Shown: one piece after another, positions 36,109 through 51,538 of the stretch
Position numbering within the stretch: the stretch's first letter is position 1
Layout of the letters: each line of letters begins with the position of its first letter
DNA from: Capsulimonas corticalis
GTDB taxonomy: Bacteria > Armatimonadota > Armatimonadia > Armatimonadales > Capsulimonadaceae
Assembly: GCF_003574315.2 (NCBI RefSeq)
Contig: NZ_AP025739.1
Span: forward strand, 868,001 to 932,000
Direction: 5' to 3'
DNA length: 64,000 nucleotides
The notes under the pieces: generated by a model
What the model saw: the letters and a program-made list of their open reading frames with translations, nothing else
The model's database searches: none
Told to the model about the DNA's origin: nothing
Made by a program: the position numbers and the translations under genes

Positions 36109-36924
36109 TCAGGCGGCTTCGCGATTGCTCACGCCCCCGGAGGGCCGGTACGGCTTTCGCGCCAGCCTTGCGATCAGCGTCCGCACAATCAGCTTCGCCA
36201 GGAATGGAAGATCGTTGACGAAATAGCGCTGGTAGAGACGCCCCGGCTCCTGGATGAAGCGGAACATCCATTCCAGGCCGCTGCGGCGCATCCAGACCGG
36301 AGCGCGGCGAACCTGCCCCGCCGCCATCTCGAACGATCCGCCGACACCGATGGAAACCGGCACCTGGATCAGATCTCGGTTTGCGGCGATCCACTTTTCC
36401 TGTTTCGGCGCGCCGAACGCGACCATCAGGATATCGGGCGCCGCCGCCGAAACCGTCTCACGGATACGGGCCTGTTCTTCTTCCGTCTTGAACGTTTCAA
36501 ACGGAGGACAGTAGGTCCCGCAGATCTTCGCGTTGGGATACCGGGCCAGCACCGCCTCTCGGGCGCGGTCGGCGACGCCGGGAACGCCTCCCAGGAAAAA
36601 CAGCGTCAACCCCTGTTCATGCGACGCCTTCGCCAGCTCCCAGAAGAGGTCGCTGCCGGCGACGCGCTCCTGGATCGGCTGACCTCCTGCTCCGGAGTAC
36701 AGACGGGAAAGCCAGACAACGGGCGCGCCGTCCGCAAGCACGAGATCCGCGCAATGGTAGACATCCGCGAATTCGGTGTCCCGGTCAAGCATGACCAAAT
36801 GGTCAAGATTTCCGGTACAGACAAAGCGCGCTTTGTCTCGCTTACGCGACATCGCCACAATCTGATCCACGGCCTGCGCCATCGTCACATTATCAAAAAG
36901 TACATTCGCGATCGGCACCTTCAT
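36109..36924 (-). CDS. WecG/TagA/CpsF-family glycosyltransferase (GT26)
   Basis: A 271-residue enzyme that adds ManNAc(A)- or glucosyl-type sugars to lipid-linked acceptors. Visible motifs: NLDHLVML near residue 40, VLADGAPVVWLSR with the catalytic Asp, FFLGGVPGVADRA and FGAPKQEKW. Its ATG overlaps the epsI stop by 4 bp (ATGA), so it is the last gene of a coupled exosortase-EpsI-GT26 operon. The frame extends further upstream inside epsI, but the overlap start is the natural one. Confidence 0.92.
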   Translation of the reverse strand: MKVPIANVLFDNVTMAQAVDQIVAMSRKRDKARFVCTGNLDHLVMLDRDTEFADVYHCADLVLADGAPVVWLSRLYSGAGGQPIQERVAGSDLFWELAKASHEQGLTLFFLGGVPGVADRAREAVLARYPNAKICGTYCPPFETFKTEEEQARIRETVSAAAPDILMVAFGAPKQEKWIAANRDLIQVPVSIGVGGSFEMAAGQVRRAPVWMRRSGLEWMFRFIQEPGRLYQRYFVNDLPFLAKLIVRTLIARLARKPYRPSGGVSNREAA

Positions 36925-37565
36925 GTCGTTGAAACCTTCTGCTTCAAGCTGGTCCACATGTCCTTCGCAAACGCCTGCAGAACGGCGTGATTTGCGGCGG
37001 CGGCGGCTTCATTCTTGTCGAGCGGGCACATAAACCGGAGAAAATACACGGGGGTATTTTTCCGTCCGAGCAGAGCGCTTTTCAGCATCGCAAATCGGAT
37101 CTGCGTCGGTGAGTCAATAATCTTACCGTCAACGACATATAGATAAAGCATCTCATAAGAAGGCGCTCCGGGGTTTCCCACCGCATGACACGACCGTGTG
37201 TCAATATTCGCTCCCGGCAAGAGTTCCGTATGATCGTCTTCCAAGCGCCACCCGGCGCCCACCAGGCACGAGCGCGGGTCGTGCAGGGCGCTGCGGTCCG
37301 TGCCGCCGATCAGAACGAAGTCGATGGGCACGTTCCCGCCGTCGTAGGCGCGGGAAATGACATCGGCGCTTCCCAAGGCGATCTTGACGTCCGCAGGCAT
37401 CTCCTGATCCGCGCCCGAGCGATAAGAGCCAATGGTGTGCGGCACATCCGCCGACGTCACACCCTGAAATTTGGGCGGCGGCGGTATGCTCCAAACCTTG
37501 TTCGTGACCAAGGCGGCCGCGAAGATCAAAATTAGAAGATAGGCCATCCGGCGAACTTGCGACAT
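36921..37565 (-). CDS. epsI: EpsI-family exosortase-associated protein
   Basis: A 214-residue periplasmic protein of the EpsI/DUF3485 family with an N-terminal signal anchor (about 7-26). The family motif is DPRSCLVGAGWRLED, with a conserved Cys, and YLYVVDGKIIDSPTQ follows. EpsI proteins accompany exosortases in exopolysaccharide loci and are needed for EPS production in Methylobacillus; the biochemical role is not settled. The start overlaps the end of the exosortase gene by 34 bp. Confidence 0.88.
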   Translation of the reverse strand: MSQVRRMAYLLILIFAAALVTNKVWSIPPPPKFQGVTSADVPHTIGSYRSGADQEMPADVKIALGSADVISRAYDGGNVPIDFVLIGGTDRSALHDPRSCLVGAGWRLEDDHTELLPGANIDTRSCHAVGNPGAPSYEMLYLYVVDGKIIDSPTQIRFAMLKSALLGRKNTPVYFLRFMCPLDKNEAAAAANHAVLQAFAKDMWTSLKQKVSTT

Positions 37566-38464
37566 CCCAATACCTTTGCCAGCGAAAAGAGGACGATAAA
37601 TCCCAGAACCAGAGTGATCATGCCGCTCCAGTCATGGAACGTGTGCGCGGCGTCGGCGCTGATACACTCCCCGACCACGCCGATCAGCGCAATCCGCACC
37701 GAGTTGATCGCCAAGCTCAGCGGAAGGCTGAGCAGAAAGATCCCGAAACGCTTGATCGGCGATCCATCCACCAAGTAAGCGAACGCGCCGCTAAATGTCA
37801 GCAGCGCCAGCAGCGTCTTGAAGCCCGAGCAGGGGACGTCGACGAAGAGCGAAAAGTTCTCCATCTGGATGACGTTGCCGTCCAGCTGCGTGCTGAACGT
37901 CAGCAAGTGCAGAATCTTGTTCGCCAGCACGGTCGACATCATCTGGATCCGCAGGGTGGCGTCGTTCAGCACCGGGCCAGGCAGCGGGGCCATAAACGCC
38001 AGAAACGCCAGCGGGATCGCCATCGCCCGGACAAGAGCTCCGCCAAACACCAGCCACACCGAGCTCCAGAGAATCAGCAGAAACGAAGTGGACATGACCG
38101 CCTGCATCTGGCTTTTGATCGCAAAGATCAGCAGTAGCAGGGACGGCAGCAGCACGGCGAGAGCGAAGTAGTTCGGCTTTTTTGGGACAGCCGCGATCGT
38201 ATCCCGGCGATACCAAAGCATCAGGGCGACGAAAAAGGGGATGACGGGGGCGTGCGCGTAGTAGGACTCCGGCTTGGTGAACTCATAGCCCCACCAGGAC
38301 AGCATCGGCCACGCCAGAGCGGCCAGAAGCGCGGCCGCAAAGACAAACGGAGCGACCGTACGCCAATCGACCTTGCGCCAGTCCAGCGAATTCGCGCTGG
38401 AAATTTCGCCGCTTACGGATGGCTTGATCCGAGCGTCGTCAGGTTGTTCAAAAATTGTTGACAT
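37532..38464 (-). CDS. xrt: Exosortase (EpsH/Xrt family transpeptidase)
   Basis: A 310-residue polytopic membrane protein (about eight helices) that recognises C-terminal sorting signals and is thought to cut and transfer proteins at the membrane. The catalytic triad is in place: Cys212 in VDVPCSGFK, Arg257 in NSVRIALIG and His277 in HDWSGM. It heads the exosortase-EpsI-WecG operon, an arrangement tied to exopolysaccharide biosynthesis in other phyla. A sigma-54-type promoter lies just upstream. The ATG at 38464 has no clear ribosome-binding site. Confidence 0.93.
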   Translation of the reverse strand: MSTIFEQPDDARIKPSVSGEISSANSLDWRKVDWRTVAPFVFAAALLAALAWPMLSWWGYEFTKPESYYAHAPVIPFFVALMLWYRRDTIAAVPKKPNYFALAVLLPSLLLLIFAIKSQMQAVMSTSFLLILWSSVWLVFGGALVRAMAIPLAFLAFMAPLPGPVLNDATLRIQMMSTVLANKILHLLTFSTQLDGNVIQMENFSLFVDVPCSGFKTLLALLTFSGAFAYLVDGSPIKRFGIFLLSLPLSLAINSVRIALIGVVGECISADAAHTFHDWSGMITLVLGFIVLFSLAKVLGCRKFAGWPIF

Positions 38465-38867
38465 TCCACTAGCCTATACGCAAATTCTGTGCCAAGTGTC
38501 ACAGAAAATAGCACTCTTACCAGGCAGGGACTAAAAAGCGAGGCAACGATTGCAATTTGAACTACACCGTTACCTCGCGTCAAAGTACGCTAAAACAGGT
38601 CGAGAAACTCCTCGCGCTCTTGTGGCGCGGAGCTTCGAACGAAACGATGCAGCAGCGACATCATGCACTGATTGAGACAGCAATATTCATGCCAACCACG
38701 GCCAAACGGGGCGAGCGAAAACCGAGCGATCATATTTTCCACTTTACCCGCTTCACTGAGGGAAGGCTAAATTAGTATACAGCACCTTCCCGCCAAGCGA
38801 ACACTTATATGAGCCATCTTACATTAGAGCGGCGAGAGACGTCCCGTGACGACATGAGCGTCTTCGC
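38465..38867. other. Intergenic region between the exosortase operon and the foldase gene
   Basis: About 400 bp without a credible gene. It holds the sigma-54 site (38479-38494), an inverted repeat GCGAGGCAACG/CGTTACCTCGC (38538-38548 and 38568-38578, one mismatch) in the position of an activator site, and a GGGAAGG/CCTTCCC hairpin (38760-38791) that may end the foldase transcript. A 72-codon plus-strand frame here looks spurious. Confidence 0.5.
38479..38494 (-). promoter_or_regulatory. Sigma-54 promoter of the exosortase operon
   Basis: TGGCACAGAATTTGCG on the minus strand: GG and GC separated by 10 nt, matching TGGCACRN4TTGCW at all positions but the last. The predicted start at about 38468 leaves only about 4 nt before the ATG, which is odd. 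Confidence 0.65.
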
Positions 38868-39773
38868 TTATTTGATGTCCGCGCTCTCGACATCCTGGAA
38901 ATAGGCCTCATAGCGCGTCGAATTAAACTTGGGCTTCGCTTCCTTGAACAGACGGGCGACGACCAGCGCGGCGGACGGCGCCTTTTGCAGCATCACTTGC
39001 CGCGTCACAAGATCGTGAATTTTGGAGAGCGGCGGCAGTCCGGTCGCATCGGCGGTCTTCACCTTGAATGTGACGTAGTCCTTGCCGAGCTGGATGGTTT
39101 TGACGTCGCCGGGGTTCATATGGAGCACGGCCTGGCTGATCGCATTTCGATACGGCGGCGGCAGCGTATCCATGTTGATCTGGAAGCCGTTGACGCCAAC
39201 CACATGCAGGCCCGGCTGGCGCGCGATCACATCCTCGGCCAGGCTTTGCTTGAGATCCGCTTCCGCAGTTCCGGAGTCTTGTGTATTATCGGTCACAACC
39301 ATCGTTGTCTTTACCTGGAGCGGCAAAGTGAACTGGCTTTTGTGGTTTTGGTAATAGTCCTGGATTTCCGCTTCATCGGCCGTCACGCCTTTGAGGCGAA
39401 GGTTTTCCAGGGAAATATCCGATCCAAGATCCTGTTTGAAGGTCGCATACTTGACAGGGTCCGCGGCTTGATCGGGCACCAACTGGGGGGTGCTTCGCCG
39501 CATCTCGTTGATCCGGGCGTCCACCTGGTCCGGCTTCGACGAAACGCCCGCGCGCTTCGCCGCCTGATCCACTAACATTGCGTAGACCATCTTGTTGAGC
39601 ACGGGTTTGCCGGCCTGATACTCCAAAGCATCCTGATAGTCCTTTTTGGTAATCGATTCGCCATTGAAGGTGACGATTGGCCGGGACGTGGAGTAACGGG
39701 AGTAAAGAATCCCATTAAAGATGAGAGAAACGATGAGAATAACGGCAAGAATGCCTGTCAGGTACTGCTTCAT
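38868..39773 (-). CDS. SurA/PrsA/EpsD-like peptidyl-prolyl isomerase foldase
   Basis: A 301-residue envelope chaperone. One N-terminal TM (about 5-24, LTGILAVILIVSLIFNGIL) anchors it outside the membrane. The helical SurA-N-like region (30-125, VTFNGESITKKDYQDAL) is followed by a parvulin-like segment with TADEAEIQDYYQNHKSQF and then a domain ending LGKDYVTFKVKTA. Parvulin catalytic residues are poorly conserved, so chaperone activity may dominate. EpsD-type PPIases are regular members of exosortase/EPS loci. It stands alone, with about 154 bp upstream. Confidence 0.8.
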   Translation of the reverse strand: MKQYLTGILAVILIVSLIFNGILYSRYSTSRPIVTFNGESITKKDYQDALEYQAGKPVLNKMVYAMLVDQAAKRAGVSSKPDQVDARINEMRRSTPQLVPDQAADPVKYATFKQDLGSDISLENLRLKGVTADEAEIQDYYQNHKSQFTLPLQVKTTMVVTDNTQDSGTAEADLKQSLAEDVIARQPGLHVVGVNGFQINMDTLPPPYRNAISQAVLHMNPGDVKTIQLGKDYVTFKVKTADATGLPPLSKIHDLVTRQVMLQKAPSAALVVARLFKEAKPKFNSTRYEAYFQDVESADIK

Positions 39774-39848
39774 TGAAGGATTTAACCTACCCTTGTGATT
39801 GAAATGATCCCATGCGGAGTCTCAACACAGCGATGATGGAGACATCCT

Positions 39849-39864
39849 TGCATGACAAATACCA
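39849..39864 (-). promoter_or_regulatory. Weak sigma-54-like site upstream of the foldase gene
   Basis: TGGTATTTGTCATGCA keeps the GG-N10-GC spacing but differs at four conserved positions. It is listed because it lies at a similar distance from its gene as the better sites. Confidence 0.25.
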
Positions 39865-39927
39865 CGGGATCACTTGCCTAGTAAGAGAATACCACAGAAC
39901 GGTCGTGCGTTCTTATTGTATTCTCCA

Positions 39928-41052
39928 TCAATTCGTTTCCGTACGGTGAGAAGCGCCCGCCAGGGCTCCTTCGGATTGTGACTGCGCGGCGGCGCCGTCA
40001 TGCAGCGCGCCCGCGATCCCATCCGCCCAGCGGTCGAGCGTGGCGTTGTCCTCCAGCCAGCGCCGCCCCGCCTGCGCCAGACGACTACGCAGAGCGTCGT
40101 CCTCCCGCAAGCGCGTGATCGCTTCGCGCCACCCCGCGACATCGCCCGGCGCGACATACAATCCCGTTTCCCCGTCGATCAAGACATCCGTTTGACCGGT
40201 CGTACGCGTAGCGATGACGGCCTTGCCCATCGCCATCGCTTCCAGGATCGTGGTGACCCCCGCCTGGAAATCGTTCTCGTAGAGAGGCACGACGACGAAC
40301 TGCGACTGTCCGTAAAGCGTGCGCAAGTCGCCGTACTCATAACGGCGGGCGTCGACATTGGGCGGCAGAGTGCGATTCTCTGTCTCGTTCTGGTGCTTGG
40401 ACCAGGGCGAGGACGCCGCCAGCTTCACCGAAAGATCGGGCATCGTGGAGACGGCCTCAATGAGCGTCGGGTAATCCCGCCACTCCAAACCCGCCGAGCT
40501 GATTTGATTTTCGATCACCGGAATATTTGAAAGCGGGCGATAGAACCGGTCGTCCGCGTGGAACGGGATCAAGCGCAGCGCGGCCCCAGGAACCCCGAGC
40601 GTCTGACGCGCAAAATCGTACTGCGTCTGCGCGTAGAGAAAGATCCGGTCGATCTGTTGATGCGCCTTGATGGAAGTAAAGAAAAGGCGTTTCTTCCCGG
40701 TGGACAGGCGATGACCGATCGTCACATGCCAGGGGCGCCGCGAGACGGTTTTGAAAAGCAAGGCAAGCGGGATCGCGAGGTTTTCGCCGTTGGTAAAGAC
40801 GGCGTCGTACGCCGCGCGCCGCACGAACCCCGCCATCGCCATTCCGGCGTCGCGCCCCGCTTTACGCGCGGACTTCACGAGGGTGTTCGTGTCCGCGTCG
40901 AGTGCGGCGTAATCGTATAGGTCCACCTGGTCGCCCAGCGCTTCCAGCCGGTCGGCCAGGGCGTAGTAATCCATCTTCGGATGGCGGTCCGCCGCAACCG
41001 CTTCGTCTGTTTGCGTCTTCAAAACGCTGGGAATCAGTAAAAGAATTTTCAT
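39928..41052 (-). CDS. Glycosyltransferase, family 4 (GT-B)
   Basis: A 374-residue cytoplasmic sugar transferase for EPS repeat-unit assembly. The C-terminal Rossmann half holds the GT4 donor-binding run: VVPLYENDFQAGVTTILEAMAMGKAVIATRT is the E-x7-E region (about residues 255-285), followed by GETGLYVAPGDVAGWREAI. The N-terminal half is divergent (MDYYALADRLEALGDQVDLYDY). It lies 4 bp downstream of the next GT4 gene, so the two form an operon. Donor and acceptor are unknown. Confidence 0.85.
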   Translation of the reverse strand: MKILLLIPSVLKTQTDEAVAADRHPKMDYYALADRLEALGDQVDLYDYAALDADTNTLVKSARKAGRDAGMAMAGFVRRAAYDAVFTNGENLAIPLALLFKTVSRRPWHVTIGHRLSTGKKRLFFTSIKAHQQIDRIFLYAQTQYDFARQTLGVPGAALRLIPFHADDRFYRPLSNIPVIENQISSAGLEWRDYPTLIEAVSTMPDLSVKLAASSPWSKHQNETENRTLPPNVDARRYEYGDLRTLYGQSQFVVVPLYENDFQAGVTTILEAMAMGKAVIATRTTGQTDVLIDGETGLYVAPGDVAGWREAITRLREDDALRSRLAQAGRRWLEDNATLDRWADGIAGALHDGAAAQSQSEGALAGASHRTETN

Positions 41053-41056
41053 GCGC

Positions 41057-42151
41057 TCAAGCCGCCGGGCGGGCGACCCCTTTCACCACATCCACCAGTT
41101 TTCGATAATTCGTAGCCGCGTCAAAACGCGCCAGCGCGGACTCTCTGGCGCGGCGGCTCATCGCCGCGCGCCGGTCATGATCCGTCGCCAGCTCCGCGAT
41201 CGCCTTCGCCAGCGCGTCGGGATCGTCCGGCGGCACGATCAAGCCCGTTTCGCCGTGACGCACCGCCTCGGCAAGAGCGCCCACATCCGTGGCGATCACC
41301 GGCAGGCCGGCGGCCAGGGCCTCCATCACGGCCAGAGGCAGGCAGTCGCCGCGCGATGGGAACACAAAAAGGTCCGCCTCCGCGAAGCGCTCCAGCAGTT
41401 CGGGCGTGTTCGGCTTGACCCCGCGATAGACATCGACGCCCTCGACGCCATCCCCTACCCCTTCGGTGATCGTGACGATCTTCAGACGCGCGTTGACGCC
41501 GGCGGGCAGTCGCTTGAACGCTTCGAGCAGCGTGTCGCCGCCCTTTCGCGGGAAGTCCCCGCCGACAAACAGCAGATTGATCGGGCGGCCTTCCGCCGGC
41601 GGCCGCTGCGGGAAATCCCAGCGCGCCGTGTCGATCCCCGGCGGAATCACCGTGATCTTGTCCGCCGGCACCCCGTAATCTTTGACGAGCGATTGCTTCG
41701 CCCATTCGGACCAGGTCACCAGCGCCCGCGCCGCATGAAACGCCCGTTCATTGAGCTGCTTTTTGAGCGCCTCCACGCGCGAATTGCCGCTGGGGACATG
41801 CCCGTAGAACGCGCCGAGCACGTCGTACTGCAGCGGGGTCGCATCGAGAGACACGACGGACGGCGCACGGCGCATCAGGGATTCCGAAAAGAGCGACGTC
41901 ACCTGAGTGTGGAACAAGATCGCATCGATCCTGCCGATATGGGGCCGCAGCCCGAGCAGGGCGCCGAGCGAGGCGCGCGCCGACCAGTTGGACTTGATAA
42001 ACGGCAGCTTCGCCCACCAGCCGGGCGTGTCGTGATAGGGCAAGTCAATATAGATCGGCGTTACGTCGGCGTCATCCGTCAAGACAGTTTTGAGGTTTTG
42101 CGCGTGCGTAACATGGCCGAGAGAGTATTCGAGAGCAAATGCAAGGTTCAT
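41057..42151 (-). CDS. Glycosyltransferase, family 4 (GT-B)
   Basis: A 364-residue GT4 enzyme. The conserved C-terminal motif is LFVFPSRGDCLPLAVMEALAAG (about 265-290), then GETGLIVPPDDPDALAKAI. FVGGDFPRKGGDTLLEAF marks the start of the donor domain. The similarity to the GT4 at 52840-53916 is high in this region (both have RGDC in place of the usual EGFG), so they are probably paralogues. I choose the start MNLAFALEYS; the frame is open further upstream to 42262 without a ribosome-binding site. Confidence 0.88.
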   Translation of the reverse strand: MNLAFALEYSLGHVTHAQNLKTVLTDDADVTPIYIDLPYHDTPGWWAKLPFIKSNWSARASLGALLGLRPHIGRIDAILFHTQVTSLFSESLMRRAPSVVSLDATPLQYDVLGAFYGHVPSGNSRVEALKKQLNERAFHAARALVTWSEWAKQSLVKDYGVPADKITVIPPGIDTARWDFPQRPPAEGRPINLLFVGGDFPRKGGDTLLEAFKRLPAGVNARLKIVTITEGVGDGVEGVDVYRGVKPNTPELLERFAEADLFVFPSRGDCLPLAVMEALAAGLPVIATDVGALAEAVRHGETGLIVPPDDPDALAKAIAELATDHDRRAAMSRRARESALARFDAATNYRKLVDVVKGVARPAA

Positions 42152-42196
42152 AAAAGGCAGTCGGTGGGCGGCGGGAGCAGTGTTCGCGACGCCTTC

Positions 42197-42202
42197 ATTA
42201 TA
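42197..42202 (-). promoter_or_regulatory. TATAAT -10 box ahead of the GT4 pair
   Basis: Perfect TATAAT 46 nt before the GT4 start, with a poor -35. It could be a second promoter beside the sigma-54 site at 42258-42273. Confidence 0.35.
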
Positions 42203-42257
42203 GCGCACGCATGCAGGATTTCCGAGGGACGGCAGGCGGCCCTTACAGTGATTTCTC

Positions 42258-42273
42258 TGCAAGACTCATGCCA
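42258..42273 (-). promoter_or_regulatory. Sigma-54 promoter of the GT4-GT4 operon
   Basis: TGGCATGAGTCTTGCA, flanked upstream by CTCT; GG-N10-GC spacing and one mismatch to TGGCACRN4TTGCW. The predicted start at about 42247 gives a leader of about 96 nt. Confidence 0.65.
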
Positions 42274-42305
42274 AGAGCCTTGGGATTCCCCCATAAAGCC
42301 GCAGA

Positions 42306-42333
42306 GCCGCCGGACGCAGATGCATCCGGCGGC
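42306..42333 (-). terminator. Terminator of the Fn3-protein gene
   Basis: Perfect 9-bp stem GCCGCCGGA/TCCGGCGGC with a 10-nt loop, 48 bp past the stop codon and just before the next sigma-54 promoter. Confidence 0.6.
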
Positions 42334-42381
42334 CATTTTGTTCATCGCATCGCATGACGGCGATGAGATCGCGGGGCGAAT

Positions 42382-44949
42382 TTAGCCAGGGAACGCGGGC
42401 AGCACTTCGAAGCCCATGTTGTCCCAGTGGCGCTCATCCGACCACGGCCGATGGTTGTACCAGTACGCGTTCGTCGGGTTGTACATCACCTGCTCGGGAC
42501 GATCGTTCCCGGTGTGGTAGAGCTGGTGCAGGAAGTACGGCTGCAGATTGCTGAAGGGCAGCGGCGTCGCCAGATCGTCGTCCTTGACCACCACGCCCGC
42601 CTCCACGAGACGGTAGTGCGTTTGCGAGAGGTAGAGATCGAAGCTGTGCCGCTTGTCCAGATCTTGCTGCGTGCCGTTGAACAGCGGCTTGCCATCCCAC
42701 GTGACGCGCTTTACCAGGCCGCTCCGGTCGTTGCCGGGATTGTAGCTGGTGTCCACCAGGTTCGTCATGTCGCCGTTCAGGAACTCCTCGGCGCGATGGA
42801 AGTCGGGCTTGATCTCCCAGCGGAACATGTTGCCGCTGGCCGTCGGCCAGAGGCCGCCGTCAAGCTTCGCCGGGTGGATCAGCGGATCGCCCACCGGGCA
42901 GATCACCACGTCACACCAGCGCCGGCTGTCGAAGTGGGCGTCCACTTCAAACGTCAGATGCAAAACGCGGCCGTTGGAGATATCCGCGGTGGCTTTCGGC
43001 ATCATCGCGATCGTCGCGTTGTTGTTATGGATCGGAATGTTGCTGTGAGGCGTGCCTCCATCAAAAAGCGTATCCATAAAGTGATTGCCCATCACGAAGA
43101 TCTTGGTGTTATCCATATCTCCCCAATAGTTGCGGATCACCCACTTGTTGTTCGAGAACTCGCGGACATAGACGTTCGAGTTGCTCGCGGCCACCGGGTT
43201 GTTCGAGTTCGCGGCGGCGACCACGGGATCGATGGAATCCGCCTGGACGAACGGCTGGGACGAGCGGAAGTTATCGAAGAACGCCTGAGCCCCGGTTAGA
43301 GACTTCGCGACGCAATTGACATGGAACTGCGCGGAGCGCGCGATGACGTTCGGGACATCCGAAGGATCGCCCTGGCCGTTGATCGCGACGGACATCGATC
43401 CGTCCATCTGCATCGCTCCCGGTCCCGCCGCGCCGTCCATGGTCTGGAACGGTCCGAACTTGTCCACCGCTTCGACGACCAGGTCGGCGCCGGTGGCGGG
43501 ATTGAGGCCGTTCATTTCGATGCTGAGGCTGCCGCCGCTGTATTTCATGCTCTTGGGCGAAGCCGTGCTGTACACCCGATAGTCCACCGCGCCCGGCACG
43601 GGCGCAAACGTCACGAGAGCGCTGTCGTCGTCCGCGGTGACTTGCGTGACGCTGACTGTTCCCAGCGTCGTCACAGGAGCGGATGTAGGTACGGAGACAC
43701 TGACCGGAGCCGTGGCGTCGCTTTCAATCGGAGTCATCCAGGAGACGTTGCAGCTGGAAACGGCGTAGGTGTGCGTTTCGCCGGCATGAACGTAGCGGTC
43801 GAAGTAGTTCAGTCCCCACACGCCCTCCGCGATTTTCACGCCGTCTCGGTAGATGTTGTAGGTCGCGACATGCGATGAACCTTCCCAGACGAGATGGACG
43901 CGCGGCTGCGAGACGTTCCACTCCAGCGTTCCCGCCAGGCTGTCCGGGGCTCCCGGAGCCGGGGGCATCCAGGTCGGCTGCGACAACGGGTTATTGCTTC
44001 CGCTTCCCGTCGCGATGGCGCTCGGAAGGCTTTCCATGCCCATGCCGTCCACGGCGGTGACGGTATAAGGGGTTCCGCACCAGTAAACATCCGTCGGAAC
44101 GGTGTAGTATGTGCCCTGGATGCCGCTGGCGATGCGCTTTCCATATTGGTAGACATTGTACGAGGCGGCTCCGTCGACGGGAGTCCACGCCAGCGAATCC
44201 GTGGAGCCCATTGCCCATGTTCCAAGCGTCGACAAGTTGGTCGGCGGCAAAAGCGTCATCGGCATCACTTTCGTGCCGGCGGGCGCTTTCGGAGCGACCG
44301 CCTTAACGGCGGCGGAGGGCGCGCTGCTGGCCAGCGTTCCAACCGCAACCACCGTATAGCTGTACTGAGCTCCACTCAGAAGCGCCATATCGGTATATGC
44401 CAGCGTGGTCACGCCCGGCTTCAGCAAATATCCATTTCGATACAGGTCATACTTGACGGCGTTCGGGCTCGCGCTCCACGACAGGTTGATATGCGCCATG
44501 GCCATGCCGCCGCAAACAGCGCAGCTAGCTGTCCATTGCGGCAATGCCTTCAATGACTTTGGGGCCGCCGGGACGAGAACAAGGATCGATTGCGTCACGG
44601 ACGGGCTCGTCTCCACGCCGCTGATAATCGCCGTCACATAGTATGTATATTTGCTTCCCGCCTTGACCGTGCTGTCCAAATAGGTCGTTGTCGTCGCCGT
44701 CGCGAGCTTCACTCCATTGCGATACACCTGATAAGTTTTGGCGCCGCTGACAGCTTTCCAGTCCAGCCGAGAGGAAACGGCGGCTCCGTTCGTCTCCAGA
44801 GTCACCAGCAGCGCGGACGGACCGGGCGCCGCTGCGCTGGCCTTAACCACGCCAGTCGCCGACGTATTTGCCGTCGCCGCATGGGCGGCCGGCATGTGCG
44901 TCGAACCATATAGGATCCCTGCAAGAAGCAGGGCCTTTCGTAATCTCAT
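42382..44949 (-). CDS. Secreted Fn3-repeat protein with a C-terminal domain of unknown function
   Basis: An 855-residue exported protein with a signal peptide at about 1-24 (HAATAN). About five fibronectin-III-like repeats follow (about 40-125, 130-215, 225-310, 330-425, 430-515). They share patterns such as LDWKAVSGAKTYQVYRNG, LSWSASPNAVKYDLYRNG and LVWEGSSHVATYNIYRDG. Residues about 540-855 form a Trp/His/Asp-rich domain (RNYWGDMDNTKIFVMG, HFDSRRWCDVVICP, YWYNHRPWSDERHWDN) that I do not recognise; it may be a beta-sandwich that binds or acts on polysaccharide. GGAGA precedes the ATG. It lies inside the EPS locus as its own unit. Confidence 0.78.
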   Translation of the reverse strand: MRLRKALLLAGILYGSTHMPAAHAATANTSATGVVKASAAAPGPSALLVTLETNGAAVSSRLDWKAVSGAKTYQVYRNGVKLATATTTTYLDSTVKAGSKYTYYVTAIISGVETSPSVTQSILVLVPAAPKSLKALPQWTASCAVCGGMAMAHINLSWSASPNAVKYDLYRNGYLLKPGVTTLAYTDMALLSGAQYSYTVVAVGTLASSAPSAAVKAVAPKAPAGTKVMPMTLLPPTNLSTLGTWAMGSTDSLAWTPVDGAASYNVYQYGKRIASGIQGTYYTVPTDVYWCGTPYTVTAVDGMGMESLPSAIATGSGSNNPLSQPTWMPPAPGAPDSLAGTLEWNVSQPRVHLVWEGSSHVATYNIYRDGVKIAEGVWGLNYFDRYVHAGETHTYAVSSCNVSWMTPIESDATAPVSVSVPTSAPVTTLGTVSVTQVTADDDSALVTFAPVPGAVDYRVYSTASPKSMKYSGGSLSIEMNGLNPATGADLVVEAVDKFGPFQTMDGAAGPGAMQMDGSMSVAINGQGDPSDVPNVIARSAQFHVNCVAKSLTGAQAFFDNFRSSQPFVQADSIDPVVAAANSNNPVAASNSNVYVREFSNNKWVIRNYWGDMDNTKIFVMGNHFMDTLFDGGTPHSNIPIHNNNATIAMMPKATADISNGRVLHLTFEVDAHFDSRRWCDVVICPVGDPLIHPAKLDGGLWPTASGNMFRWEIKPDFHRAEEFLNGDMTNLVDTSYNPGNDRSGLVKRVTWDGKPLFNGTQQDLDKRHSFDLYLSQTHYRLVEAGVVVKDDDLATPLPFSNLQPYFLHQLYHTGNDRPEQVMYNPTNAYWYNHRPWSDERHWDNMGFEVLPAFPG

Positions 44950-45001
44950 TGATATCTCCAGCGTCTTGTCTCCAAGGCGCGATTGTTGCGTTATTTTTCA
45001 G

Positions 45002-45150
45002 GGAGGCGGTGGTGAAACCGCTTCCAAAAATAATTGTCGGCAGCAACAATTGGAATATCAATGACCGGAGGGATAATCAGGTAGTCATGCGAGGGTTATT
45101 GAGGCGAACGGAAGTTTACGGCGCAGTGACAGATTGTCACTGCGCTTTTC
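45002..45150 (+). other. Structured plus-strand segment ending in a terminator-like hairpin
   Basis: Two hairpins, GGAGGCGGT/ACCGCTTCC (45002-45025) and AATTGT/ACAATT (45032-45051), precede a perfect 11-bp stem GCGCAGTGACA/TGTCACTGCGC (45121-45145) followed by TTTTC on the plus strand. No plus-strand gene is present. It could be a small RNA, or the last hairpin may simply end the acyltransferase transcript from the other strand. Confidence 0.35.
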
Positions 45151-45192
45151 TGATGGAGAAGAGACGCAAATCGATCGGAGACGGCGCTCAGA

Positions 45193-46374
45193 TCAATGCT
45201 GCGTCATAAACCGGCGTTCGATTGTAATATGGAAAAGGTAGGCGGCGGCGATGGCCAGGGGGAGGCCGAAAACCGCCATGACCGCAAAAGATGTCACCGG
45301 CGTTTGCCCGGCGCGAATCAGGAACAGATGCATCGATCCCAGGATCAAATAGTGAACGAGATAAAGACTGTAGGACATGGCCCCGAGCGCGATGAGGAGC
45401 GGCGATTGCAGCACGCGTATCCCGGGCGGCAGCGGCTGATTGGACTTGGTCCTGAGCCACTGCGTGCAGAAGATCAGAAAACTCGCAACGCCGAAGCCGA
45501 TGATGGGATCGATCTCGACGGGATGCTCCATAAACCAGCTGTGATGCAGCAGAATGCCGCCGAAGGAGGCGCACAATACTACGGCGGCGACGATTCCCCA
45601 GCGCGCCACGACCTTTTCGCTCATCTCCCGCTGAAAGCTCAGAGCCGCCGCTCCCATGCCGAGCGCAAACAGTCCGATAAACTGCGGGCATGCGACATCA
45701 AGGCGATGATGCAGGAGAAAGTGTGGGATCGAACCCAGCAGGATGCCGGCGGCGACGGCGGCGCCCACGCCGAACCGGCGCCAGAGCGGCAGGAGAAGCG
45801 CGGGAAACAGAAAGTAGATCTGCCATTCGGTCGCCACGCTCCAGAGGGGGCCGTTAATCTGATAGGCCCACGCCGTCCGCAAGTTGTGGATCAGAAACAG
45901 ATGCGAAAGAAGCACGCCAGGCTGAAAATCTCCCGTGGAGACATCCGCCCAGTGCGACACGACTCCCTGCCGAAGCTTCGTCTCCAGCGCGATTACCGCC
46001 AGAGATAACAACAGGGCCGCATAGTAAGGAGGAAGAATGCGCCGGGCTCTTCGGCGCAGATACGTCAGCGCGCCGCCGCGCAGCTGTCGATCCGAAGATC
46101 GGGTGACCGGGATCATAAGACAGTAGCCCGAAAGGACGATAAAGATCATGACCGCCACAAGGCCGTAATCCATCCATCCCGTCGCCGATAAAAAATGGGC
46201 GGGAAGACGTGCAGGATCCGTACGGAGCACGACTTCCGCGCGCAGATGGGAAAGCATGACGTAAAACGCTGCGACGCCTCTCAGGCTATCAAGATAGCCG
46301 AGATGGATTTTGTCTTGTTTCGCGAAATTGGCCGGCTGTCCGGGAAGACTAACTGCAGTAACGGACATTTGCAT
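45193..46374 (-). CDS. Acyltransferase 3 family (OafA/YrhL-type) membrane O-acyltransferase
   Basis: A 393-residue protein with about ten membrane helices that probably adds acetyl or another acyl group to EPS sugars. Family motifs: GYLDSLRGVAAFYVMLSH with the catalytic His region near residues 26-43, then the RRARRILPPYY run (about 130-140) and WSVATEWQIYFLFP. A paralogue of the plus-strand acyltransferase at 50354-51538. A sigma-54-type site lies about 60 bp upstream. Starts at 46374 or 46368 are both possible (GGGGGA precedes the second). Confidence 0.92.
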   Translation of the reverse strand: MQMSVTAVSLPGQPANFAKQDKIHLGYLDSLRGVAAFYVMLSHLRAEVVLRTDPARLPAHFLSATGWMDYGLVAVMIFIVLSGYCLMIPVTRSSDRQLRGGALTYLRRRARRILPPYYAALLLSLAVIALETKLRQGVVSHWADVSTGDFQPGVLLSHLFLIHNLRTAWAYQINGPLWSVATEWQIYFLFPALLLPLWRRFGVGAAVAAGILLGSIPHFLLHHRLDVACPQFIGLFALGMGAAALSFQREMSEKVVARWGIVAAVVLCASFGGILLHHSWFMEHPVEIDPIIGFGVASFLIFCTQWLRTKSNQPLPPGIRVLQSPLLIALGAMSYSLYLVHYLILGSMHLFLIRAGQTPVTSFAVMAVFGLPLAIAAAYLFHITIERRFMTQH

Positions 46375-46434
46375 CCCCCGCCAGGTGAACTACGGAAATG
46401 ACAGAGAATCGCATTTCAGGTTTTTAGCTGTAGT

Positions 46435-46450
46435 TGCAATATCTCTGCCA
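46435..46450 (-). promoter_or_regulatory. Sigma-54 promoter of the acyltransferase gene
   Basis: TGGCAGAGATATTGCA, preceded by GCACT: GG-N10-GC spacing, perfect TTGCA, one mismatch in TGGCAC. The flank CACTTGGCA is shared with the exosortase-operon promoter. The predicted start at about 46424 gives a 50-nt leader. Confidence 0.65.
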
Positions 46451-46537
46451 AGTGCTATAGATTTTGCTGATAACGACATTAGAAAAATGTAATTATCAGT
46501 CACTGCTTAAGCGGGGCGACTTAAAATTCCGACACAG

Positions 46538-47503
46538 TTAAGAACTTACCGTCTGCTTTACCGTTACGGGCGCTGCGGGCGCAGCCTGGGCGGGGATAAA
46601 GCAGAGGGTGCTCTTATTGATGGGCGTGCGCATCCCTTGCAGGAATCCACGACTGAAGTGGACGATGCGCATAATGCCGCGCGGCCGCTTGAGCTGGCGC
46701 AGATCCCGGAAAAACGGCGTCAGCGCGTAAGAGCTCAGCAGATTGATGATGACGCCGGCGAAACTGACGTGGCCGCACCGGATCGGCTTCGAGTAGGCGG
46801 CGCCGATTCCCGTCCAGTCGCGCTTTGACAGAAAACGAGATTCGTCATGAGACCGGAACCCGAAATGGACGACGGAGACTTTGTCCGTCTCCAGCACGGA
46901 ATACCCGCGTATCAGCGCACGCACGGCGATATCCCAGTCTTCGCAGGACGGGAATTGACCGCCCGCCCCCAGCATCTCGTCAAAACCGCCCATCGCGCGC
47001 ACCATGGAGGCGCGCACCGCCATCCCCGCGCCGATGCCGCGCGCCGAGCGCTTATCCAGCACTCCGGAGAAAACACGCTCGCCCTTCGCGCGGTAGGCCG
47101 GGATCAGGCCGACGCTGGAATCGTGCGGAGCCGCTTCCACCGTGGTGTAAACAACCGCGATCTTCCGATCGATCTGAAACGCCTCGTACACCTTTCTGAG
47201 CCAGTCCGTGGGCGCCGTGCAGTCGTCGTCCGTATATGCGACGAGGTCGGATTTTACTTCGCCCAAAGCAATGTTGCGGGCAACGCCCAGCCCCTTGGTG
47301 CCGGTCCGGATAAAGCGCACGCGAGGATCGCTTTCGAACGGCGCCACAGCCTGCGCGGTCTCCTCGTTGGTGCTTTGATCCACGATGACCAATTCGAAAT
47401 CAATATCGTCGATCGCGAGGATCGTGGAGATCGTCGCGGCGACGCTTGCGCCGCGATTGCGCGTGCAGATGGCGGCTGAGATCATCGGGGGGCTAACAGA
47501 CAA
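46538..47503 (-). CDS. Glycosyltransferase, family 2 (GT-A)
   Basis: A 321-residue sugar transferase. The GT-A fold is clear: ISAAICTRNRGASVAATI at the N-terminus, FELVIVDQSTN, then LVAYTDDDCTAPTDW with the DxD-type metal site, and GGFDEMLGAGGQFPSCEDWD with the acceptor/catalytic ED. The C-terminal helix may touch the membrane. The start is a choice: GGAGG at 47512-47516 points to TTG at 47503, whereas an ATG at 47518 overlaps that GGAGG. Third gene of a probable operon with the GT2 and pyruvyltransferase genes. Confidence 0.88.
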   Translation of the reverse strand: MSVSPPMISAAICTRNRGASVAATISTILAIDDIDFELVIVDQSTNEETAQAVAPFESDPRVRFIRTGTKGLGVARNIALGEVKSDLVAYTDDDCTAPTDWLRKVYEAFQIDRKIAVVYTTVEAAPHDSSVGLIPAYRAKGERVFSGVLDKRSARGIGAGMAVRASMVRAMGGFDEMLGAGGQFPSCEDWDIAVRALIRGYSVLETDKVSVVHFGFRSHDESRFLSKRDWTGIGAAYSKPIRCGHVSFAGVIINLLSSYALTPFFRDLRQLKRPRGIMRIVHFSRGFLQGMRTPINKSTLCFIPAQAAPAAPVTVKQTVSS

Positions 47504-47548
47504 ATGAATGTCCTCCATAATCCAAAAAGAGCAGAGCGCGGCGCAGGG

Positions 47549-48580
47549 CTATCCCTTTACCACGGGCGCGACAGGGAGGTCTCCCGGTCCAAAGAGCAGA
47601 CGAGACATTTGCTCGGCGCCCATCTCGGTCCTCGCGCTCTCCAGATAACGCACATTGTAGACCATGCTGAGCATCGCCATCGCCACTTTGGTCACGCCGG
47701 CGCGGTAAAGCCCCACGGCGACGGCCACAAGCAAGGCGCGGATCGGCGCGGCCAGGAACGGAGCGTTCATCATAAGGCGCGCCATCATGCGCGTCGTGCG
47801 ATTGCGATTCGTGTAGCTGTTTTTCACCACGATCCAGCTCACCCGGCCCTCGCGCGCCCGGATCACGTCGCACTGTCCATAGGATGTCGCCACGTTCAGC
47901 CAGCTGGCGAAGGAGCGATGCGGCCGATGGATCACATCGGCCTTGGGATCGAAGACGAAGTTGACGCCCTGGGTCCTCCGCATGCGATGGGCCAGCTCGA
48001 CATCTTCCTGCCGTTTGAACTCGACGTCAAATCCTCCCACCGCCACGATATGCTCGCGGCGCAGGGAGGCGTTCCCTGTGTAAAAGTGGTTCGCCCACGC
48101 CTGCTTCCAAACTCCCGTCGTGAGGTTGAAGTACTGCTTTTGCAGCATGGCGTGCTCCCAGGCGATCCAGGCAGGCTCCACGCCGCGCCGGGCGGGGTCC
48201 GGCGACATCGGTCCGATGACCACAATTTTGTCGTCGCTTTTATGATGGGCCATATGGCTGGCCAGAAAATCGTCGACGGGCTCTACGTCATCGTCGATAA
48301 ATACGATGATCTCGCCCTTGGCCGCCCAAACGCCGGCGTTTCGCGCCTGCGCGGGGCCTTGATTGGCCTGGGTGATCACGCGAAGCGTGTACGGCGCGCC
48401 GCCCGCATATTCCTCAAGGAAGGCGTCCGTACCGTCAGTCGAGCCGTCGGAAACGACGATGACTTCCACATCCTGGAGGGAATATTTCTGGCGCGCCAGG
48501 CCGTCCAGCGTCACTTTGAGGCTGGCTTTGCGATTATACGTCGGAATAACGACCGTGATGGACTGAGCACTTTCTTGCAT
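47549..48580 (-). CDS. Glycosyltransferase, family 2 (GT-A)
   Basis: A 343-residue GT2 enzyme. SITVVIPTYNRKASLKVTL opens the fold, VEVIVVSDGSTDGTDAFL holds the first Asp, and EIIVFIDDDVEPVDDFL is the DxD-type metal site. GGFDVEFKRQEDVELAHRM gives the ED motif. C-terminal hydrophobic residues suggest membrane contact. The frame runs 250 bp further upstream inside the pyruvyltransferase gene, but homology starts at MQESAQSITVV; a TTG at 48592 with AAAGG before it is an alternative. Confidence 0.9.
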   Translation of the reverse strand: MQESAQSITVVIPTYNRKASLKVTLDGLARQKYSLQDVEVIVVSDGSTDGTDAFLEEYAGGAPYTLRVITQANQGPAQARNAGVWAAKGEIIVFIDDDVEPVDDFLASHMAHHKSDDKIVVIGPMSPDPARRGVEPAWIAWEHAMLQKQYFNLTTGVWKQAWANHFYTGNASLRREHIVAVGGFDVEFKRQEDVELAHRMRRTQGVNFVFDPKADVIHRPHRSFASWLNVATSYGQCDVIRAREGRVSWIVVKNSYTNRNRTTRMMARLMMNAPFLAAPIRALLVAVAVGLYRAGVTKVAMAMLSMVYNVRYLESARTEMGAEQMSRLLFGPGDLPVAPVVKG

Positions 48581-48626
48581 TTCTCGACTCAACGCGCCTT
48601 TCCTTGACCGCGGCCACGCAGGCCGC

Positions 48627-49994
48627 CTATGGCTTCGATTCCGCCTGCGACACGCGTGAGGGAAGAACGCCGCGCTCCGATTTCGCCCAGTGCGCCTGCG
48701 CCGCTTCCACGACGATCTCGATATTTCGCTTGGCGAGTTTCTGCCCCTCGGCAAGACCGGCGCGGGCGCGCTCCCGGGTCTTCGGCAGGTCCGACAGCAG
48801 CTCCGTGATCTTGGCGGTAATCTCATCCGACGTGGCGTCGGCCATTGTGAGCACCCAATCCTCCAGTCCGATCTGGCGCATCAGGCCCCGGGATTTCGGC
48901 TCGTACTCCAACACCACGACAGGAGCTCCGCCGACGAGGCTGAGGATCCCGCCATGCAGGCGGCTGGAGAGCACCAGGTCGCAATGCCCCATGAAATAAG
49001 AGAACTCACGCGGATGCACGAAGCCGGTGACATGGTGCGCGTCCGGGCGCAGCGGCGCCGGCAGCAGCTCCTGAATGCGTCGCCCGACCGGCTCGTCGTC
49101 CTGAAACGATCCCTCAACCTTCTGATGACTGGTGAGAAAGACCAGCTCCGTGTCGCCGCGCTCCAGCAGCGACTGGCAGACACGCGCAATGCGGGCCTCA
49201 AAGTCCGCTTGTTTCGCAGGGCGGTCCGCCGCGCCCGGCCAGATATAGTCGTGAACGCAAATCCCGACTCGAAGCGGCTTCTTCTTTTCCGGGGCCAGGA
49301 GCTTGCTCGGCGGCCTGGGAATGATCCGCAGCGCTTCATCGATCGTCTGGTGGACATTGTCGCCCAGCAGCTTGATCTGCTCGCGCGCCGCTTTCACCGC
49401 TTCGGCGTCGCGGCAAAGGACGGCGGCCGCGTGGTCGAGCGAGTCATGCAGCAGATCCGGAAAATTATCCCCGTCCCGAAACGGTCCCAGCGAGTGGGCG
49501 TACACGAACAGGGGCTTGCCGAGCGCATGCGCCACTTGATATTGGGCCACGCGGGATTTGCGCATGAAAGGCACGGTCCAGGACGTGCTCAGACAGGCGC
49601 CGCCGGCGACGCTGATAATATCCGCCTCTTCAAACTCTCGGAAGAGCTCCCGCTCGTGGCTGGTCAGAAGAAACAGCGGAAATCCCATCCGCCGAAGGCG
49701 CGCCTGGAGAGGAAACCGCTCGGTGGCCGTTTTCCGGATCAGGCGTCCCCAAATATCCCACTTGGCGATTGTCCAGTCGCGCCCGGCGTTCCAGAGGGTC
49801 GAGGTAAAATGCAGCTCGGGATAGAACTTGGCGAACGGTCCTGCTTCCCGGGTCACGCCGCAGTAGCAATTGCGTACATCCGTCCCAGGCCCGAAGGCCT
49901 CCTCGAACGAAGACTTCATCGCCAGCAGAATTGCGGCGTCGCCCATATTGCTAATCACGTTGTCCGTGATCAAAACTCGCACGTTTTTCTTCAT
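48627..49994 (-). CDS. Polysaccharide pyruvyl transferase family protein (CsaB-like)
   Basis: A 455-residue GT-B-like enzyme that would transfer pyruvate from PEP as a ketal onto EPS sugars, adding negative charge. Motifs: VLITDNVISNMGDAAILLAM at the N-terminus, DIISVAGGACLS, VYAHSLGPFRD and the C-terminal HLVLSSRLHGGILSLVGG-like run (CDLVLSSRLHGG, about residue 325). AAGGA 7 nt before the ATG at 49994 favours it over 50015. First gene of a three-gene minus-strand operon with two GT2 genes. Confidence 0.88.
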   Translation of the reverse strand: MKKNVRVLITDNVISNMGDAAILLAMKSSFEEAFGPGTDVRNCYCGVTREAGPFAKFYPELHFTSTLWNAGRDWTIAKWDIWGRLIRKTATERFPLQARLRRMGFPLFLLTSHERELFREFEEADIISVAGGACLSTSWTVPFMRKSRVAQYQVAHALGKPLFVYAHSLGPFRDGDNFPDLLHDSLDHAAAVLCRDAEAVKAAREQIKLLGDNVHQTIDEALRIIPRPPSKLLAPEKKKPLRVGICVHDYIWPGAADRPAKQADFEARIARVCQSLLERGDTELVFLTSHQKVEGSFQDDEPVGRRIQELLPAPLRPDAHHVTGFVHPREFSYFMGHCDLVLSSRLHGGILSLVGGAPVVVLEYEPKSRGLMRQIGLEDWVLTMADATSDEITAKITELLSDLPKTRERARAGLAEGQKLAKRNIEIVVEAAQAHWAKSERGVLPSRVSQAESKP

Positions 49995-50353
49995 ACAGTA
50001 TTCCTTCGAGCCCATCTTGAAAAGTCGTCAATTCCCGGCGTTCCAATAACCCTGACCTCATTATGGCGTCAAATAGGCCGACAGCGTGAAGTCCTGGGGG
50101 CGCCAATCGGCAATATCGAGATCGAAGCTTGCAAGTTTGGCACACAATGTGCAGCAAATGCTTTTTTGTACTGACCTCTGAGCCGATATACAGCATATTC
50201 CGCGAAGCCGGTAGCCATACTACTCCATAAAATTGAGAGGCTCGCCGCTTTTCTTACTTGCAAAAATCGAGCCAACTCTCCCAATTCGCATTGGTTTGAG
50301 AAAACTTCCGCGATTTCAGAAACTTGGCGTTACATCACGCAGGAGCACGACAC
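49995..50353. other. Intergenic region between the divergent pyruvyltransferase and acyltransferase genes
   Basis: About 360 bp without a gene. It holds a plus-strand sigma-54-type site at 50138-50153 for the acyltransferase. I found no comparable site for the minus-strand operon. Confidence 0.5.
50138..50153 (+). promoter_or_regulatory. Sigma-54 promoter of the plus-strand acyltransferase gene
   Basis: TGGCACACAATGTGCA: perfect TGGCAC and GG-N10-GC spacing, with GTGC in place of TTGC. The predicted start at about 50164 gives a leader of about 190 nt. It is the only such site on the plus strand and precedes the only plus-strand gene of the locus. Confidence 0.6.
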
Positions 50354-51538
50354 TTGAACACGCTGACAGAAGAAAAGCATTCCTCTAACCCACCGCGGCA
50401 AAACAATTCCCGCGCGCGCACGTACTTTAAATATCTCGACGGACTGCGCGCGCTCGCCGCTCTCTGGGTTGTCGCCGAACATGTCTGGGTGTCTCAGTTC
50501 AACATTTTCGCGCATCCCGGCTGGCGCGGGCTGCTGACAAACTGGCTCGCCTACGGACATCAATCGGTCAATATCTTCATCGTGCTTTCCGGGTTCTGCC
50601 TTGGCATTCCCATCGCGCAAGCCGGCGAGATGCGAGGCGGCGCGCTCCAATTCTATTCCCGCCGCGCCCGCAGAATCCTGCCGCCGCTCTATGCGGCCAT
50701 TGCAATCGCGGTCGTCGCGCAGTTTCTCTCGCATCTCCTCGATCCGACGATTGCGAAACCCACCGCGCTCGCCGTGCTTTGCAACGCCCTGCTGCTTCAG
50801 GATGTCTACCCGAAGATTAACTTTCTGGACACGCCCCTGTGGAGCGTGGCGCTGGAGTGGAAGATCTATTTCCTTCTGCCGCTCTTTGAGCTCATCATTC
50901 GGAAATATGGAATCGGATGGGCGATGGGCGTCGGCGCGGCGATCGGCTACGGCGTCACGGGCATATTCGCCGCCGTTCAGCCGGGGATGAGCCTGGAGCA
51001 CACCTGCCCCTGGTATGTCCTGCTGTTCGCCATGGGCGTCAGCGCCGCCTACATCTGCTTTAGCGACGCCGCCCCGATGAAGCGCGTTCAGTTATCGGTC
51101 ACAAGCTGGAGATGGGCCGCCGGCTTCTTTGCCCTGGCGCTGGGCTTTCTGCTGCACAAATTCTCGACCTACAACCCCATCGACCGCCATGCCTACATCG
51201 CCCATCTTCCCCTCATCGATGCGGTCGCCGGCGTTTTGATCGCGTGCTGCTTGATCCTGATCACCAAGGCGGCGCAGGCCTCAGACAACACCCCGGTGGT
51301 GAAGGTCCTTTCATCGCGGCCCCTCGTTGCGATCGGCCTCTTCGCCTATTCGCTCTATCTGACGCACTCCGTCGTCCTCAACTTACTGCGCGTGCTGCTG
51401 TATAAGTTCGGTCACGGGGAGACGGCGTCGGCGTTCCACAATCTCGCCATCCTGGGAGGCTTCGGCGTTCCCGTGCTGATCGGCTTCGCCTACGTCTTCT
51501 TCGTTCTGTTCGAGCGGCCGTTCACCCGAAAGCGATAG
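50354..51538 (+). CDS. Acyltransferase 3 family (OafA/YrhL-type) membrane O-acyltransferase
   Basis: A 394-residue protein with about ten membrane helices that probably O-acylates EPS. FKYLDGLRALAALWVVAEH holds the catalytic His, SRRARRILPPLYAAI and WSVALEWKIYFLLPL are shared with the paralogue at 45193-46374. The start is a TTG at 50354 with GGAG 8 nt upstream. The only gene in the locus on the plus strand, with its own sigma-54-type site, and convergent with the GT4 at 51579. Confidence 0.92.
   Translation: MNTLTEEKHSSNPPRQNNSRARTYFKYLDGLRALAALWVVAEHVWVSQFNIFAHPGWRGLLTNWLAYGHQSVNIFIVLSGFCLGIPIAQAGEMRGGALQFYSRRARRILPPLYAAIAIAVVAQFLSHLLDPTIAKPTALAVLCNALLLQDVYPKINFLDTPLWSVALEWKIYFLLPLFELIIRKYGIGWAMGVGAAIGYGVTGIFAAVQPGMSLEHTCPWYVLLFAMGVSAAYICFSDAAPMKRVQLSVTSWRWAAGFFALALGFLLHKFSTYNPIDRHAYIAHLPLIDAVAGVLIACCLILITKAAQASDNTPVVKVLSSRPLVAIGLFAYSLYLTHSVVLNLLRVLLYKFGHGETASAFHNLAILGGFGVPVLIGFAYVFFVLFERPFTRKR

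Follow-up and report, generated by a model that had tools for sequence, protein, structure and literature searches.

In Proteobacteria, a sigma-54 motif is present ahead of PEP-CTERM genes, together with an activator motif and the PrsK, PrsR and PrsT proteins (Haft et al. 2006, PMC1569441). RpoN dependence of one PEP-CTERM gene (pepA) has been shown in Aquincola (PMC9850573). An upstream region of this kind is missing from many PEP-CTERM genes in and beyond the Proteobacteria, and these must be regulated in other ways (PMC1569441). The subject of the present analysis is a group of sigma-54 type -24/-12 sites in an exosortase and exopolysaccharide (EPS) locus of Capsulimonas corticalis, a member of the Armatimonadota. 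The locus is in a 64,000 nt stretch of DNA, hereafter the window, that represents positions 868001-932000 of a 7.645-Mb single-contig genome (NZ_AP025739.1).

A second type of described system consists of sigma-54 activators (enhancer-binding proteins, EBPs) without a DNA-binding domain, i.e., Helicobacter FlgR and Chlamydia CtcC, which represent Francke type Ic (PMC3162934, PMC7482065). Contact of FlgR with closed sigma-54 complexes from solution has been shown, according to a work cited in PMC1976401. A bias of sigma-54 to cell-exterior functions is also known (Francke et al. 2011, PMC3162934; regulon survey PMC12316311). The text of PMC12316311 contains no mention of Armatimonadota, PEP-CTERM or exosortase and that of PMC3162934 none of PEP-CTERM, and a limited search of the open full-text literature found no paper in which Armatimonadota are connected in this way with exosortase or sigma-54.

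The sequence comparisons given below make it highly probable that the sites are real -24/-12 promoters, driven by sigma-54 and a solo, probably enhancer-independent EBP that lacks a DNA-binding domain, and that they belong to a genome-wide EPS/PEP-CTERM regulon. The link of sigma-54 to PEP-CTERM and EPS genes would then be present in another phylum, where the initial annotation of this DNA had envisaged either an extension or an independent origin. It would use a different activator here and extends well beyond this locus.

Sites in the exosortase locus and in the genome

Four 16-mers with exact GG-N10-GC spacing had been listed in the initial annotation, and all are found in the window as written and are aimed into the genes that were named for them. 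Site TGGCACAGAATTTGCG (38479-38494, minus strand) is ahead of the genes for an EpsH family exosortase of 310 aa (37532-38464, minus; PF09721 174 bits, TIGR02602 127 bits and over the cut-off) and an EpsI/DUF3485 protein (36921-37565, minus; TIGR02914 over the cut-off, PF11984). Site TGGCATGAGTCTTGCA (42258-42273, minus) would serve two GT4 glycosyltransferase genes, GT4 a (41057-42151, minus), where the open reading frame (ORF) is open to 42262 with TTG but the likely start is ATG 42151, and GT4 b (39928-41052, minus). Site TGGCAGAGATATTGCA (46435-46450, minus) would serve the gene of an acyltransferase 3 family protein (45193-46374, minus; PF01757), and site TGGCACACAATGTGCA (50138-50153, plus) that of a homologous acyltransferase-3-like protein (50354-51538, plus), which has a TTG start with AGGAG ahead of it. 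The flank CACTTGGCA is, as had been noted, common to the sites at 38.5 kb and 46.4 kb. There are two additional sites of equal quality. One is TGGCATGAATATTGCT (38679-38694, minus); the other is the divergent site TGGCTCGATTTTTGCA (50259-50274, minus), which is aimed over 265 nt at the genes for a polysaccharide pyruvyl transferase (48627-49994, minus; PF04230) and a GT2 protein.

The GG and GC doublets are set in the sigma-54 type context TGGCAY..TTGCW. Site quality was assessed with an approximate sigma-54 weight matrix of our own that was built after the published consensus. The six top matches in the window are exactly these six sites, with scores of 16.0-19.3 bits. All six are intergenic and are situated at 38-50 kb, and the next-best match (13.5 bits) is in coding sequence. 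The intergenic DNA of the locus (1.8 kb) has 6 matches of at least 11 bits, whereas 300 shuffles gave 0.35 on average and never more than 3. The loose-pattern count in the window is not significant by itself (5 vs 2.4 expected); the significance of the window sites comes from their position and score and from genome-wide tests, not from a plain pattern count.

The exosortase site has its GC ending 15 nt before ATG 38464, and this distance is the same in three genomes (this one, the congener G001, and G004). The predicted exosortase leader is therefore ~4 nt, and translation would accordingly be leaderless or nearly so. Between the sigma-54 site and the start of the GT4 pair there is also a TATAAT box (~42180-42230) that is kept in the congener and suggests a second, housekeeping promoter.

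For the genome-wide tests, gene context was taken from ~1 Mb of genome regions with a home-made codon-based gene caller, where start codons are approximate. Background rates were limited to the 240-280 kb of regions picked without regard to sites, because part of the ~1 Mb had been picked for holding sites. The fuller pattern TTGGCAY-N6-TGCW has 23 occurrences in the genome, while the same half-sites spaced at N4, N5, N7 and N8 have 1, 5, 7 and 7, respectively; with a mean of 5, the Poisson probability of 23 N6 sites is near 4e-9. All but one of these sites (22/23) are intergenic. Eighteen of the 23 are promoter-like, i.e., at most 300 nt ahead of a same-strand gene, compared with 1/20 sites at control spacings (Fisher 1e-6) and 5.8% of positions drawn at random. 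Of the sites compatible with a gene in just one orientation, 9 are so as read and 1 when reversed. No genome-wide enrichment is seen for the loose pattern TGGC-N7-TTGCW (118 vs 134 for the reversed control). Weak sites beyond those listed are not claimed, because only the fuller pattern shows an excess.

A genome scan for enrichment near EPS genes, proposed in the initial annotation, has a positive outcome: the first genes behind promoter-like sites are EPS or PEP-CTERM genes in 12/18 cases, compared with 5/184 background genes. The share is 9/15 without the window. The exosortase, a UDP-glucose dehydrogenase and one acyltransferase were both query and target in this test, and with these three proteins left out it is still 9/15. 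PEP-CTERM targets are situated at 7.35 Mb (a tandem pair), 1.31 Mb (two genes in tandem) and 6.57 Mb (one gene); tandem PEP-CTERM pairs with sites are found in regions L060 and L080. Further targets are acyltransferases, bacterial sugar transferases, the UDP-glucose dehydrogenase, a glycosyltransferase pair and cold-shock proteins. When all PF07589 PEP-CTERM genes are considered, 7/18 are preceded by a site that scores 13 bits or more, compared with ~1/206 background genes.

Some targets deserve separate mention. Small CspA-type cold-shock genes are found repeatedly behind sigma-54 sites (L068:10083, L074:9539, L149). Those in this genome are followed by EPS-type genes, and one by a Wza-type export gene. 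Two divergent sigma-54 sites are present between two nonribosomal peptide synthetase (NRPS) genes (L066:9580-9755, genome 2.98 Mb), and sigma-54 may thus also control the production of a nonribosomal peptide.

Conservation in related genomes

The sites were compared in a set of 41 genomes, 33 rpoN-bearing and 8 without detected rpoN, with the reversed pattern as control. The rpoN-bearing genomes have 503 sites vs 194 control matches, and those without detected rpoN have 46 vs 41; in the own family the numbers are 203 and 41. The site excess tracks rpoN presence across genomes. In G008, which is without rpoN, the exosortase locus is retained and no site is present there.

Genome G002, from another genus, has 44 sites vs 1 control match, of which 38 are intergenic and 28 promoter-like. 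Several of its targets are orthologous to targets found here: the UDP-glucose dehydrogenase (87% identical), a cold-shock protein, a sugar transferase with a chain-length protein, a glycosyltransferase (60%) and a 75-aa protein. The orthologue of GT4 b, which has a sigma-54 site of its own, and several PEP-CTERM proteins are also among the G002 targets. The gene for a SurA/PpiC-type peptidyl-prolyl isomerase (38868-39773, minus) has no site here, whereas a site is present ahead of its orthologues in G002 and G006. The 75-aa protein is conserved but of unknown family and is encoded behind a sigma-54 site in the two genera (L081:11384-11611, genome 7.415 Mb; G002 L141); it may be a small regulon-specific protein.

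Two of the window sites are footprints in the comparison with the congener G001. Site 38679-38694 is identical at 17/17 positions with flanks of 12/40 and 11/40, and the GT4 site is identical at 16/17 with flanks of 12/40 and 13/40. The exosortase site is also conserved (16/17, with all 15 nt to the ATG identical), but it is not a discriminating footprint because the upstream 40 nt are 38/40 identical as well.

In G001, a PEP-CTERM-like gene is situated between the equivalent of site 38679-38694 and the exosortase. This gene, which occupies the gap from the exosortase to the peptidyl-prolyl isomerase in G001, is missing here and only a 24-codon ORF is left (window 38464-38868; L038:680-2030). 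Since the PEP-CTERM gene is absent, the site is most simply read as the orphaned promoter of a lost gene. It possibly now represents a distal exosortase promoter. In G004 there are two PEP-CTERM genes at the same place, and sites are present ahead of the exosortase and ahead of both genes.

RpoN, activator and kinase

One complete copy of rpoN, without which a sigma-54 reading would have failed, was found in the genome. The protein has the activator-interacting, core-binding and DNA-binding domains (PF00309, PF04963, PF04552) and the RpoN box ARRTVVKYRDEL. An IS3-like transposase pair adjoins rpoN here (L037:7370-8586). A gene for an NAD-dependent sugar epimerase/dehydratase, itself a nucleotide-sugar gene, precedes rpoN in 5/5 genomes from four genera (L037:8917-11494; L220, L221, L224, L225).

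A PF00158 search of the genome gave four places, and one of these is a true sigma-54 activator. This sole EBP found is encoded at genome positions 5083760-5084986 (minus; PF00158 244 bits, loop HDKNAFTGA). The three other matches are Clp-type ATPases without a GAFTGA loop and were rejected as EBPs. The EBP consists of a receiver, an AAA+ domain with an NAFTGA loop and the lid, and then ends; it has no helix-turn-helix (HTH) family match and no DNA-binding domain, and the protein stops 33 aa after WPGNVREL. Orthologues in five family members carry NAFTGA and end 32-42 residues after the lid motif. In the sister family, the orthologues with readable ends stop at 43-48 residues, and SAFTGA is present wherever the loop can be read. 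The missing DNA-binding domain is not a frameshift artefact, because the end point is the same in the orthologues of both families. In more distant Armatimonadota some EBPs have a longer C-terminal tail, and two cleanly read loops have GAFTGA. One tail-less EBP (G030) has G at the first GAFTGA residue. In the two families of the order, absence of a DNA-binding domain appears to go with N or S at this residue wherever it is readable. An N at loop position 1 is listed as functional in Paracoccus (PMC3162934).

The kinase gene that adjoins the EBP encodes a cytoplasmic, AtoS-like protein of 1218 aa with four GAF domains and one PAS domain. It is kept beside the EBP in G002, and an orthologue is also near the EBP in G004.

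The initial annotation had suggested a scheme similar to PrsK/PrsR, and this is not borne out. The EBP scores 366 bits with the PrsR model TIGR02915, under the cut-off of 502.6, and models for AtoC, NtrC and NifA score higher. The PrsK model TIGR02916 is absent from the best 25 of 88 NCBIfam matches of the kinase, a result for this protein and not from a genome-wide TIGR02916 search. No shared upstream activator motif was found with 7- and 8-mers and gapped words when 28 upstream regions from this genome and 44 from G002 were compared with shuffles. A planted-motif control showed that a well-conserved motif at 60% of sites is detectable with this procedure but a weak one at 40% is not.

Proposed circuit and alternatives

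In the proposed mechanism, RNA polymerase with sigma-54 (RpoN) would read the -24/-12 sites and start transcription there. The cytoplasmic GAF/PAS sensor kinase probably phosphorylates the EBP upon a signal. Because the EBP has no DNA-binding domain, its hexamer would act from solution and contact closed sigma-54 complexes at any of the promoters, with no need for an upstream enhancer. Enhancer-independent activation is compatible with the lack of a shared upstream motif, although weak motifs could escape detection. The whole regulon would then be switched together and the outcome would be a changed surface coat. Its content suggests that it would mainly make and decorate an exopolysaccharide coat: sugar-nucleotide, priming and glycosyl transferases, acyltransferases, chain-length and export proteins, the exosortase and a subset of PEP-CTERM proteins.

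A comparison with the known systems shows resemblances to each. As in the PrsK/PrsR system, -24/-12 sites precede PEP-CTERM genes, the organism also has exosortase and EPS genes, and the candidate activator is an NtrC-type two-component response regulator. The differences are the phylum, an activator that is not PrsR and has no DNA-binding domain, the lack of a detected activator motif and a kinase that is a cytoplasmic GAF/PAS protein. The regulon here also takes in the exosortase, acyltransferases, sugar transferases, UDP-glucose dehydrogenase and cold-shock proteins. The present system therefore shares sigma factor and target class with the PrsK/PrsR systems but not the activator, and is no member of them. 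The EBP resembles FlgR and CtcC in that it has a receiver and an AAA+ domain without a C-terminal HTH and is the sole EBP found in its genome; by analogy, it is a candidate for enhancer-independent activation of all sigma-54 promoters. It differs from them in its NAFTGA L1 loop and in its targets, which are EPS and PEP-CTERM genes and not flagellar or developmental genes. The bias of the sites to exopolysaccharide synthesis and transport genes is like the general control of the cell exterior by sigma-54.

Several observations weigh against the proposed regulon. Eleven of the 18 PEP-CTERM genes and several EPS-cluster genes of the window have no site, and because of these genes sigma-54 cannot be the sole control. 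Some targets are not obviously envelope genes, i.e., the two NRPS genes, a PLD-like protein, the cold-shock proteins and an HDOD unit. The exosortase site would leave merely the ~4-nt leader, and the GT4 pair has the TATAAT box upstream as well. The EBP was also not found in the congener draft, which is 69% complete.

Among the alternatives, the one that survives best is that the sites are true sigma-54 promoters with the usual enhancer-bound EBP, either an EBP that was missed or the one found here with a separate DNA-binding partner. The activator motif in Proteobacteria, ~63 nt upstream of the sigma-54 site (Haft et al., PMC1569441), provides a precedent. This alternative is nevertheless unlikely, in view of the single EBP that PF00158 yields in a single-contig genome, the orthologues of the sister family and of six members of the own family, which end 32-48 aa after the lid motif, and the lack of a common upstream motif. 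The sites could also represent an inverted-repeat operator of another regulator, e.g., TTGGCA-N5-TGCAA, with sigma-54 uninvolved. The G002 consensus TTGGCAT-N5-ATGCA is partly symmetric, as an operator would be, but the symmetry is weaker in the home genome and GG is invariant on the left side only. The facing of sites toward genes, 9 to 1 where informative, and a site excess that follows rpoN presence also speak against an operator, which we consider very improbable. Even less credence can be given to a divergent yet genuine PrsK/PrsR system inherited with the exosortase locus. TIGR02915 does match the EBP, but with a score below both its equivalog cut-off and the AtoC and NtrC models; the EBP has no Fis-type domain, which defines PrsR, it is encoded 4.2 Mb from the exosortase locus, and PrsK is outside the best 25 NCBIfam matches of the kinase. 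That AT-richer intergenic DNA of a 60% GC genome happens to hold GG-N10-GC words would agree with the loose-pattern counts in genome and window, but chance does not account for the spacing, orientation, position and target class of the sites, for their dependence on rpoN across genomes or for the cross-species footprints, and it retains hardly any probability.

The regulon of sigma-54 promoters and a solo EBP proposed here may be part of a wider circuit. In this circuit, a single sigma-54 would, together with a single enhancer-independent EBP that has no DNA-binding domain, constitute an order-wide Armatimonadota master switch dedicated to extracellular polysaccharide and PEP-CTERM/exosortase output, an extension toward which the present data incline us slightly. 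If it is true, the link between sigma-54 and PEP-CTERM genes is either much older than PrsK/PrsR or arose twice with different activators. Sigma-54 control of PEP-CTERM genes has so far been described only in Proteobacteria, and the same sigma factor and gene class in another phylum, with an activator that does not bind DNA, makes an ancestral versus a convergent origin testable. A global sigma-54 switch that works without enhancers could also be studied here in a non-pathogen, and the sequence rule TTGGCAY-N6-TGCW predicts surface genes in the poorly studied Armatimonadota.

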